A stretch of DNA of 64,000 nt from Halorubrum lacusprofundi ATCC 49239 (GTDB lineage Archaea > Halobacteriota > Halobacteria > Halobacteriales > Haloferacaceae), in the NCBI RefSeq assembly GCF_000022205.1, contig NC_012029.1:2170001-2234000 (forward strand). Reading direction: 5' to 3'. Position numbers and translations under genes: made by a program. Shown piece after piece: positions 4,130-7,748 of the stretch (positions are counted from its first letter, which is position 1; every line of letters starts with the position of its first letter). The notes below the pieces were generated by a model. It saw only the letters and a program-made list of their open reading frames with translations, made no database searches and had not been told where the DNA came from.

Positions 4130-4762
4130 TTAGTCCACCGCTCCGGACGACGCGGACTCGGGGTCCTCAGAATCGTCCGTGTTCGACTCCTCGCCGTCCG
4201 CAGCGCCGCCTTCGGCTCCCTCGGTCGCTTCGTCACTCGCTTCCTCTCGCTCGTCGCGTTCCGCTGCCGCGGAGAACTCCTCCGGCGTGGCGTCGATCCG
4301 CTCAAACGCCCCGAAATCGCGCTCGTGATGGCGGATTATCTGCTCGACGATCCACGCGCTGTAGCGCTCGGAGTACGCCCACTCGCCCTCGGCGTCGTCC
4401 ACCTCGAACCGGTCGTCGGTGGCGAGCGCGGCGTACAGGTGGTAGAAGCCGAGCACCACGTCGCCGAACTCCTTCGCCTCGGCACCGATCTCGCGGCGTT
4501 TCTCGACGAGTTCCTCGCGGCCCGCGTCGGTGAGCGCGAAGTACTTGCGGTCGGGCTCGTCGGCGCGCTCGACGCGCTCGGCGACGCCCTCCTCCTCGAA
4601 CTTGTAGAGGATCGGGTACACCGACCCGTACGAAGGCTCCCAGTGGCCGCCGCTGATTTCGGTGATATCGCCCAGCAGCTCGTATCCGTATCGGGGTCGC
4701 TCGGCGAGTAGCTCCAACACGAGATACGAGATCAGTCCTTTCGGCGGCCCGCTTTTCCGCAT
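4130..4762 (-). CDS. PadR-family transcriptional regulator
   Basis: This 210-residue protein has a PadR winged helix at residues 1-85: KGLISYLVLELLAERPRYGYEL, then GSVYPILYKFEEEGV (recognition helix region) and a wing ending RKYFALTDAGREEL. A middle helical dimerisation region follows, and the tail after about residue 165 is disordered and acid-rich (EEASDEATEG, ESNTDDSEDPES), typical of halophile proteins. PadR proteins usually repress detoxification, membrane or transport genes. It lies 84 bp downstream of the UbiA/cyclase-domain fusion on the same strand, so cotranscription and control of that membrane enzyme are plausible but inferred. Confidence 0.88.
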   Translation of the reverse strand: MRKSGPPKGLISYLVLELLAERPRYGYELLGDITEISGGHWEPSYGSVYPILYKFEEEGVAERVERADEPDRKYFALTDAGREELVEKRREIGAEAKEFGDVVLGFYHLYAALATDDRFEVDDAEGEWAYSERYSAWIVEQIIRHHERDFGAFERIDATPEEFSAAAERDEREEASDEATEGAEGGAADGEESNTDDSEDPESASSGAVD

Positions 4763-4846
4763 CGTCCCTACGTTTCTGAGTCGTCGTGAAAGGGTTTCGG
4801 TCGCGGCGATCGGTAGTCGAACTGCGAGGTCGAACCGCGAGCGTGT

Positions 4847-6043
4847 TCACCTGTGAGTATCGCTTCGAGACGCGTCGTCCGACTCGGCCGAGAGCGTCCG
4901 GATGGTCTCGTGAATGCCGAGGACAAGTGCCGGCACGACGATCATGAAGAGGTGCTCCTCGATCGGGATCCCGAACAGGTCGTATCCGGTGCGCATCGTG
5001 ATCTCGAAGACGCCGATCTCCAGCGTGTACCAGTCCCAGAGGTACGCGATCGGATACAGGGCGGCGATCGTCCGGGCCGACTGACGGAGCGCGCCGGCGT
5101 AGCGGAGCAGGCCGAACGCGAGCGCGCCGAAGACGATCTCGGTGGCGAGGTACGTGTACGACCCGAGAACGGTGATGTCCGGAAGCGGGGTGCCGGACAG
5201 CGGTCGAAACCAGACGGCCACGATCAGGACGGCCAGGAAGACGTAGGCGCCACGGATCAGTAGCATCGTCGCGATCGTCGGGCGGGCCCGTCTGGCCACC
5301 AGTGCTATCGGGGCGAACGCGAGCGCCGCGGCCGGCGCCGACGGGGGAAACAGTCCGTCGACTGTCCCCCAGAGAACGCCGACGAGCCCGGCCATCAGCA
5401 GAGAGAACGCCAGCGTCCGGGCTCGGGGTCGGCCGAGCAGTACCGAGACGGTCCGTTTGTCGATCGATCTGTCGTACGCGTAGTCCTGTTCGTCGTCGAT
5501 GATCTTCACCCCGGCGAGTGTCACGAGGAAGACGAGCGCGAATCCGAGTATCGCCGCGGTCATCTCGGTCGTCTGGACGTAGAACCCGCCGAGCAGCGCG
5601 AGCGCGATGCCGCTCGGGTACCCCAGCGTCGTGGTGAGCGGATTCGTATCGAGCTGTGGCGCGTGGAGATACCCGATGAACCAGGTCGGAAGGGTGACGA
5701 GCGCGGCGCCCGGGCCGACGAATACTCCGAGCGTGAGCGTACAGACGGCGAAGCCGACGCCGGCGGCGAGAAGGGAGAGGCGACAGCCGCGGATCGTCAT
5801 CGGATGGTCGTCGTCCTCGCCGCGCCGATGGAAGTCGACGTAGCCGTCCTTCACGTGTGCCGTATACACCGCGAAGAAGATCGCGGTCATGTGAATCGCG
5901 CCCACCGAGAGCGCGAACTCGCCGGCGACGGCCGCACCGAACCACGAGGCCGCAAGCGGCGGCAACATGAACACCGGGTGGACCTGCGAGAGCAACGCCC
6001 GCAGGTCAGCCTGTAGTCCGTGTTCGTGCCGAGCGATGGCCAT
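4847..6043 (-). CDS. UbiA-type prenyltransferase fused to a lycopene-cyclase-type (CrtY) domain
   Basis: This 398-residue, highly hydrophobic protein has two parts. Residues about 10-280 look like a UbiA prenyltransferase with 7-9 membrane helices and a second acidic motif IIDDEQDYAYDRSIDKRT, close to the UbiA D-x3-D-x3-D pattern before a K-T. The first acidic motif is degenerate (HVKDGYVDFHRRGEDDDH in place of NDxxDxxxD). Residues about 290-385 contain a carotenoid-cyclase domain: WDWYTLEIGVFEI, then TGYDLFGIPIEEHLFM, matching the GxPIEExLFF signature of CrtY/CarR half-domains. Only one cyclase half-domain is present, whereas active lycopene cyclases have two. A role in C40/C50 carotenoid modification (elongation with end-group cyclisation or hydration) is inferred. 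It is divergent from pitA and upstream of a PadR regulator. Confidence 0.8.
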   Translation of the reverse strand: MAIARHEHGLQADLRALLSQVHPVFMLPPLAASWFGAAVAGEFALSVGAIHMTAIFFAVYTAHVKDGYVDFHRRGEDDDHPMTIRGCRLSLLAAGVGFAVCTLTLGVFVGPGAALVTLPTWFIGYLHAPQLDTNPLTTTLGYPSGIALALLGGFYVQTTEMTAAILGFALVFLVTLAGVKIIDDEQDYAYDRSIDKRTVSVLLGRPRARTLAFSLLMAGLVGVLWGTVDGLFPPSAPAAALAFAPIALVARRARPTIATMLLIRGAYVFLAVLIVAVWFRPLSGTPLPDITVLGSYTYLATEIVFGALAFGLLRYAGALRQSARTIAALYPIAYLWDWYTLEIGVFEITMRTGYDLFGIPIEEHLFMIVVPALVLGIHETIRTLSAESDDASRSDTHR

Positions 6044-6185: not shown

Positions 6186-7748
6186 ATGGTCGAGGCACCA
6201 CAGACCGAGGAGGGGTGGTTCGCGCTGCACGACTTCCGCTCTATCGACTGGGACGCGTGGCGAGACGCCCCCGAGCGAGAGCGGAAACGGGCGATCGAGG
6301 AGGGCAAGGCCTTCCTGAAACACCGGGAGCTGGTCGCCGACGCCGACGAGGGCGACTCCGGGCTGTTCTCCGTTCTCGGGCACAAGGCCGACCTGCTGTT
6401 CGTCCACTTCCGCCCCACGCTCGACGACCTCTCGTCGATCGAGCGCCGGTTCGAGGACACTGCGCTCGCGAACTTCACCGAGCGGACGACCTCCTACGTC
6501 TCCGTCACCGAGGTCTCCGGCTACGTCTCCGACGAGTTCTTCGAGGACCCCGAATCGGTCGATACGGGGCTCAAACGCTACATCGAGGGGAAAATGACGC
6601 CGGAGATCCCCGACGACGAGTACGTCTGCTTCTACCCGATGAGCAAGCGCCGCGGCGAGGAGTACAACTGGTACGACCTCTCCTTTGAGGACCGCGCCGA
6701 CCTCATGGCCGACCACGGCGAGGTCGGCAAGGAGTACGCCGGCAAGATCAAGCAGGTGATCGCCTCCTCCGTCGGCTTCGACAGCCACGAGTGGGGCGTT
6801 ACCCTGTTCGGCTCGGACCCGACCGACATCAAGGACATCGTCTACGAGATGCGCTTCGACCCCGCCTCCTCGCGATACGGCGAGTTCGGCGAGTTCTACA
6901 TCGGTCGCCGGTTCCCGCCCGAGGATCTGGGCGCGTACTTCGCGGGCGAGACGGTGCCGACGCCAGCGGGCGACGGCGATACCGGAGATACCGAGGACGG
7001 GCACGGACACGCTCACGGCGAGGGCCACGACCATGCCGGTTCCGGCGGCGGATCCGCACACGGCGACCACCCCCACGGCGAGGAGGAGACGAGCGGCGAG
7101 GGCGACCACCCGCATTCGGGTGAGGAGGGCGGACACGGCGGCGAGGATGGTGACGACCCCTCCGACGCCGATATCCGCGGCGAGCTCGCGGATCTCAACA
7201 TCTACGCCGGTAAACCCAGCGGCGAGGACGTGTACGCGACTGTGCTCTACAGCGAGGCCGACGTCGACGAGTTGTTCGACGAGGTCGAGGGGCTCCGCGG
7301 CAACTTCGACCACTACGGCACCCACGTGAAGACGGCGGTGTACGAGGGTCGCGTGACCGATCGCGCCGCGGTCGTCTCCATCTGGGACACGGCCTCCGCC
7401 GCCGAGACCGCGGCCGGCTTCCTCTCGGAGCTACCGGAGGTCGTCGCCCGCGCCGGCGAGGAGTCCGGATTCGGCACGATGGGGATGTTCTACACCGTCA
7501 AGCCGGAACATCAGGAGGACTTCACCGACACCTTCGACGACGTCGGGGAGATACTCGCGGAGATGGACGGCCACGTCGAGACCGACCTGATGATGAACGT
7601 CGAAGACGAGAACGACATGTTCATCGCGAGCCAGTGGCACGCCAAGGAGGACGCGATGGCGTTCTTCGGCTCCGACGAGTTCCGCGAGACGGTCCAGTGG
7701 GGCCGAGAGGTGCTGGCCGACCGGCCGCGTCACGTCTTCCTGGCGTAA
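6186..7748 (+). CDS. pitA: PitA heme-binding protein: chlorite-dismutase/HemQ-like domain, His-rich linker, monooxygenase-like domain
   Basis: This 520-residue fusion protein is typical of haloarchaea. Residues about 1-245 are a chlorite-dismutase/coproheme-decarboxylase-like domain (FRSIDWDAW, CFYPMSKRRGEEYNWYDLSFEDRADLM, then SVGFDSHEWGVTLFG). Residues about 255-325 form a Gly/Asp/His-rich linker with a dozen or so histidines, likely metal or heme binding. Residues about 330-520 hold two ferredoxin-like segments of the antibiotic-biosynthesis-monooxygenase type. The Haloferax homologue binds heme. A role in heme synthesis or heme/iron handling is inferred from the Cld/HemQ family. The ATG at 6186 directly precedes the conserved EGWFALHDFR segment. 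It is transcribed away from the carotenoid fusion gene. Confidence 0.92.
   Translation: MVEAPQTEEGWFALHDFRSIDWDAWRDAPERERKRAIEEGKAFLKHRELVADADEGDSGLFSVLGHKADLLFVHFRPTLDDLSSIERRFEDTALANFTERTTSYVSVTEVSGYVSDEFFEDPESVDTGLKRYIEGKMTPEIPDDEYVCFYPMSKRRGEEYNWYDLSFEDRADLMADHGEVGKEYAGKIKQVIASSVGFDSHEWGVTLFGSDPTDIKDIVYEMRFDPASSRYGEFGEFYIGRRFPPEDLGAYFAGETVPTPAGDGDTGDTEDGHGHAHGEGHDHAGSGGGSAHGDHPHGEEETSGEGDHPHSGEEGGHGGEDGDDPSDADIRGELADLNIYAGKPSGEDVYATVLYSEADVDELFDEVEGLRGNFDHYGTHVKTAVYEGRVTDRAAVVSIWDTASAAETAAGFLSELPEVVARAGEESGFGTMGMFYTVKPEHQEDFTDTFDDVGEILAEMDGHVETDLMMNVEDENDMFIASQWHAKEDAMAFFGSDEFRETVQWGREVLADRPRHVFLA

Follow-up and report, generated by a model that had tools for sequence, protein, structure and literature searches.

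What reaction calls for a UbiA-type prenyltransferase with half of a carotenoid cyclase attached to its C-terminus? This question is raised by a gene in the window analyzed here, a stretch of 64,000 nucleotides from the Halorubrum lacusprofundi ATCC 49239 genome, in which both parts are encoded in a single ORF (Table 1). A preliminary description of this DNA had called the ORF, which is real, and had recognized a UbiA-like N-terminus followed by a CrtY/CarR half-domain with the motif GIPIEEHLF; both motifs that it quoted are present, and both domains are matched by domain models. A 547-aa ORF (4302-5945, minus strand) overlaps the fusion gene in a different frame of that strand; it is GC-rich and looks spurious.

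Table 1. Features of the fusion gene and its immediate neighbors, with positions given in the window.
Feature	Residues	Positions	Strand	Basis or remark
Fused UbiA prenyltransferase / single CarR half-cyclase gene		4847..6043	-	398 aa ORF
UbiA-type membrane prenyltransferase domain	1-284	5192..6043	-	PF01040, Foldseek, end of stand-alone orthologue
First Asp-rich motif KDGYVDFHRRGEDDDH	65-80	5804..5851	-	Each key residue present in 95 to 97 of the 97 clade members
Second Asp-rich motif DDEQDYAYDRSIDKRT	183-198	5450..5497	-	D183, D184, D187, D191 and K196 in 97 of 97 clade members
Single CarR/CrtYd-like half-cyclase domain	~284-385	4889..5194	-	TIGR03462/PF18916, start of stand-alone orthologue
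GIPIEEHLF motif of the half-cyclase	358-366	4946..4972	-	I-P-x-E-E-H-x-F invariant in 22 half-domains
PadR-family regulator, downstream neighbor		4130..4762	-	PF03551; neighbor only in Halorubrum
HemQ (chlorite-dismutase family) with C-terminal ABM domain fusion, divergent neighbor		6186..7748	+	Neighbor only in Halorubrum

The profile searches that the preliminary description had suggested gave a match above the cut-off for the N-terminal part. The Pfam model PF01040 matched residues 30-250 with 35.2 bits (E 1e-8, cut-off 34.2). An AlphaFold model built from 31 family members had a mean pLDDT of 88, and in a Foldseek search of the PDB every match with E <0.001 belonged to the UbiA family (DGGGP synthase, AfUbiA, UBIAD1, ApUbiA). 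With this profile match, a predicted helical membrane fold and two conserved Asp-rich motifs, the protein falls within the UbiA superfamily. The second motif, D183-D184-x-x-D187-x-x-x-D191 ... K196, is the one that had been called good, and it holds throughout the clade. The first does not follow the NDxxDxxxD consensus and had been called degenerate. Its pattern, K65-D66-G67-x-x-D70 ... R74-x-E76-D77-x-D79-H80-P81, is off-consensus but fixed in 97 of 97 clade members (D79 in 95 of 97); the motif is unusual, not decayed. When the other UbiA proteins of the same genome were scored against the clade profile, MenA reached 18.9 bits, DGGGPS 12.5 and LyeJ 8.3, and the domain does not appear to be specially LyeJ-like. 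In a tree that included these paralogues they could not be placed, branch lengths being at their limit.

For the C-terminal part the profile result was borderline in the fusion protein itself. TIGR03462 (CarR_dom_SF) gave 39.2 bits (E 7.4e-10) with the protein, against a cut-off of 39.4, and 43.4 bits, above that cut-off, when the locus was scored as a DNA stretch; PF18916 matched residues 296-380 with 20.1 bits (E 1e-3), below its cut-off of 27. A cyclase-half call made from the fusion sequence by itself would thus be borderline, but nearly all relatives pass the TIGR03462 cut-off. Three stretches, T-Y-L-x-x-E, Y-P-x-A-x-x-W-D-W-Y and I-P-x-E-E-H-x-F, are invariant in 22 half-domains, a pattern of conservation of the sort expected of a putative active site. 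Outside these 22, Ile replaces the Glu of TYLATE in the half-cyclases of genus g47 (L094, L099, L103), and Arg replaces the second Trp of WDWY in two others (L100, L102).

The half-domain is homologous to the membrane half-domains of haloarchaeal CrtY. In profile comparison it lies closest to the second half of that enzyme (E 2.3e-7, versus 4.3e-3 for the first half). CrtY carries two different halves in one ORF beside Blh, whereas the half studied here is a single one, found both in genomes that have CrtY and in genomes that lack it. The fusion protein shows homology to the CarR domain and has one half only, not the two that CrtYcd/CarR cyclases combine within one chain or as a heterodimer. 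Structure prediction of the half-domain alone gave three helices with good confidence, and comparison with solved structures in the PDB returned no match by sequence or by fold.

The two parts are not always joined. Full-length fused relatives were found in Halorubrum, Haloferax, Halobaculum, Halogeometricum, Halopenitus, Halovenus and other genera. Many other haloarchaea have a separate UbiA gene of ~283 aa, which ends at about residue 283, and a stand-alone half-cyclase of ~106 aa, which starts (MLPDI..) at the fusion junction. Stand-alone half-domain genes (57-70% identity) are present in most haloarchaea, and one such record is annotated as 'lycopene cyclase domain-containing'. Separated genes map to different contigs or are over 1 Mb from each other (e.g. 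G328, G245); in two genomes of one genus (G080, G379) they are side by side. Mapping the fused or split state onto the UbiA tree gave four changes, of which at least three are forced.

Nearly four fifths of the haloarchaeal genomes surveyed carry both parts, whether fused or separate. Out of 391 genomes, 308 contained both parts and 81 neither, with a half only in one (G229) and a UbiA only in another (G182), giving 309 genomes for each part and a phi of 0.98; a Fisher P for this joint presence ignores kinship, related genomes not being independent, and is not to be read as a probability. Five genomes in which the UbiA match was only a distant relative (E ~1e-30 to 1e-37) do not enter the count for the clade UbiA, and all five are without the half-cyclase. 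A fused gene makes joint presence trivial; it is the lineages with split genes that are informative. In genus g26, for example, one genome (G018) is without both parts, and other members have both, unlinked. A profile search of the phylum outside the class Halobacteria returned only partial matches (~1e-9). It is well supported that the UbiA protein and the half-cyclase form a functional unit. Judged from sequence, the module is a real, conserved and haloarchaea-specific two-part membrane enzyme, with an activity that is predicted. In a literature search we found no description of the pair or of its product.

The preliminary description had suggested that a partner might supply the second half-domain. 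A search of 60 genomes with the CarR model detected CrtY together with the single half in 26, the single half only in 18, CrtY only in 9 and none in 7; at the sensitivity of TIGR03462, a second half in trans was not found in any of the 60. Because 18 of these genomes have no detected CarR domain other than the single half, it needs no CrtY and, at this sensitivity, has no other half to pair with, which goes against the suggested partner. If the half is a cyclase, self-pairing would be the simplest inference. A retinal-related step had also been considered; it was rejected, since the presence of the half is independent of CrtY and the H. lacusprofundi genome has its own CrtY-Blh.

The reading that we favor, with somewhat less than even confidence, is a haloarchaea-specific prenyltransferase coupled to a homo-oligomeric half-cyclase, which together would make a cyclized prenyl lipid other than a carotenoid. 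The N-terminal UbiA domain, with its two Asp motifs and Mg2+, would take the prenyl group of a prenyl diphosphate and attach it to an acceptor. The C-terminal CrtYd-like half would pair with itself, as two copies of one half in place of the usual two different halves, and the self-paired half would protonate and then cyclize the terminus of the prenyl chain. A non-carotenoid acceptor, aromatic or quinone-like, would be more likely than lycopene. Catalysis by each domain, the self-pairing, the cyclization chemistry and the nature of the acceptor are all what we infer. It is possible, though on the whole doubtful, that most haloarchaea use a UbiA protein and a self-paired single half in this way to make a cyclized prenyl lipid that has not been described, in which an aromatic or quinone-like compound is prenylated. 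If true, the self-paired half would break the rule that enzymes of the lycopene-cyclase class need two different halves.

Hints at the acceptor came from gene neighborhoods. Haloarchaeal megaplasmids encode a sister subfamily of UbiA proteins, with 33-39% identity in the alignment (L116 8007-8906, L117 7953-8810, L118 7974-8849, L119 8028-8963). On all four plasmids examined its gene is divergent from an AMP-binding CoA-ligase gene; IclR, cupin and CoA-ligase genes are also found nearby. In the module clade itself, AMP-binding genes adjoin the UbiA gene at a few loci (L014, L121, L157, L040), which are a minority and differ in position, and a gene for a TPP enzyme adjoins it at four loci, the one scanned being benzoylformate-decarboxylase-like. 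The CoA-ligase and TPP neighbors weakly suggest an aromatic or acyl acceptor.

A carotenoid product, the C40/C50 step of the preliminary description, appears unlikely. On this reading the protein would act like LbtBC or CrtEb-CrtYef: the UbiA domain would extend lycopene, or a different carotenoid, by C5 units and the half would close the end rings, giving a minor, overlooked cyclic C45 or C50 compound. The half-domain is clearly of the CrtYd kind, and actinobacteria have the same two activities fused or clustered (PMC6393565). The likeness to Dietzia drawn by the preliminary description holds: LbtBC of Dietzia sp. CQ4, which acts with LbtA in the synthesis of beta-cyclic C50 carotenoids, likewise joins a UbiA-type elongase, in one reading frame, with one cyclase subunit of the CrtYcd type (PMC6393565). 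LbtB, however, heterodimerizes with LbtA, whereas the haloarchaeal module has no second half that we could find; lbtABC is clustered with carotenoid genes, and the haloarchaeal module is not in a crt cluster; LbtC elongates lycopene, and the haloarchaeal UbiA domain is not specially elongase-like. The domain order also appears reversed, with the prenyltransferase preceding the cyclase here and the published name LbtBC implying the opposite.

The known carotenoid genes of H. lacusprofundi are accounted for separately, in a CrtID-LyeJ-CruF cluster (L080) and a CrtY-Blh cluster (L001). LyeJ is a membrane prenyltransferase of the same UbiA superfamily as the module, but it is a separate gene and matches the clade profile no better than MenA or DGGGPS do; conversely, the fusion protein gave no match to PRK12875/13595/13105, the elongase-type models that LyeJ matches best. 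A survey for crt genes, as the preliminary description had proposed, revealed no CrtID, LyeJ, CruF, CrtY, Blh or phytoene synthase in ~110 homologous neighborhoods. In Haloferax mediterranei, deletion of lyeJ left lycopene as the only carotenoid spot on TLC (PMC6282799). The reference strain of this species, ATCC 33500, carries an orthologous clade UbiA gene on pHME505 (L114). In so far as the engineered strain keeps this plasmid and the species also has the half-domain gene, the stop at lycopene argues against lycopene as the substrate; taken together, the evidence disfavors a carotenoid substrate for the fusion enzyme.

It is also rather improbable that the half-domain is a non-catalytic subunit, structural or channeling substrate, of an otherwise ordinary UbiA prenyltransferase. 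Such a subunit would be expected almost always to be paired with the clade UbiA, as the half is, and the presence of a single half with no partner found is consistent with this role. The invariance of the putatively catalytic P-x-E-E and of the WDWY stretch among the 22 halves is active-site-like and speaks against this role, as does the fact that many lineages encode the half apart from the UbiA gene and unlinked to it.

The UbiA domain finds its nearest named families, weakly, among the MenA/UbiA aromatic prenyltransferases, whose fold it shares (AfUbiA, ApUbiA, UBIAD1, DGGGPS), and from which it differs in its low similarity, its non-canonical but fixed first motif and its coupled half-cyclase. 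Its weak NCBIfam matches are led by PRK12884, followed by MenA models, and MenA was the top-scoring paralogue in its own genome. These matches could point to a variant menaquinone enzyme, such as an additional MenA equipped with an accessory domain, which would supply the usual haloarchaeal quinone. We regard this as very unlikely: the same genome encodes a bona fide MenA (391 bits, above the cut-off), and the whole module is missing from about one fifth of haloarchaea. Against TIGR00751, the MenA equivalog model, the fusion protein scored 24.5 bits, with a cut-off of 102, and its resemblance to MenA is weak and confined to the region of the second motif. The genome also encodes a DGGGP synthase. 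That an ordinary UbiA protein has been given a spurious cyclase match, as the single-sequence scores of the half-domain at or below curated cut-offs might have suggested, is refuted almost beyond doubt by the stand-alone halves of most haloarchaea and by scores that pass the cut-off in the majority of the genomes searched.

If the pair works as a unit, most haloarchaea carry an unassigned isoprenoid step, masked by the annotations 'UbiA family prenyltransferase' and 'lycopene cyclase domain-containing protein'. In many genomes the sole CarR domain is the single half, which lends itself to testing how two-half lycopene cyclases originated, since a self-pairing half can be assayed directly. Haloferax carries the fused gene and has genetic tools, making the question testable.

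The surroundings of the genes were also examined. The separate UbiA gene often lies between an aminotransferase gene (upstream) and YchF (downstream), which looks like housekeeping synteny. The stand-alone half-cyclase is usually divergent from a CBS-domain gene (L084, L087, L091-L093, L101 and others; L120 7998-8300). Inferring a function from the neighbors of the fusion gene was rejected, because HemQ and PadR adjoin it only in Halorubrum. Within that genus the fusion gene is present in a minority of genomes only, and on the UbiA tree the Halorubrum proteins are nested among sequences of Halovenus, Natronomonas and other Haloarculaceae-type organisms; lateral gain would be a likely source of this patchy presence.

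Two copies of the gene, one of them apparently disrupted, were present in one genome of Halobaculum litoreum (L027 and L041; G385). In addition to the UbiA proteins discussed above, the H. lacusprofundi genome encodes two CtaA-CtaB-like fusions (L076 1435-2886, minus strand; L077 898-2301, plus strand) and a 381-aa UbiA-family protein (L081 1387-2532, minus strand), the best match of which, a weak one, is the prenyltransferase model PRK13591.
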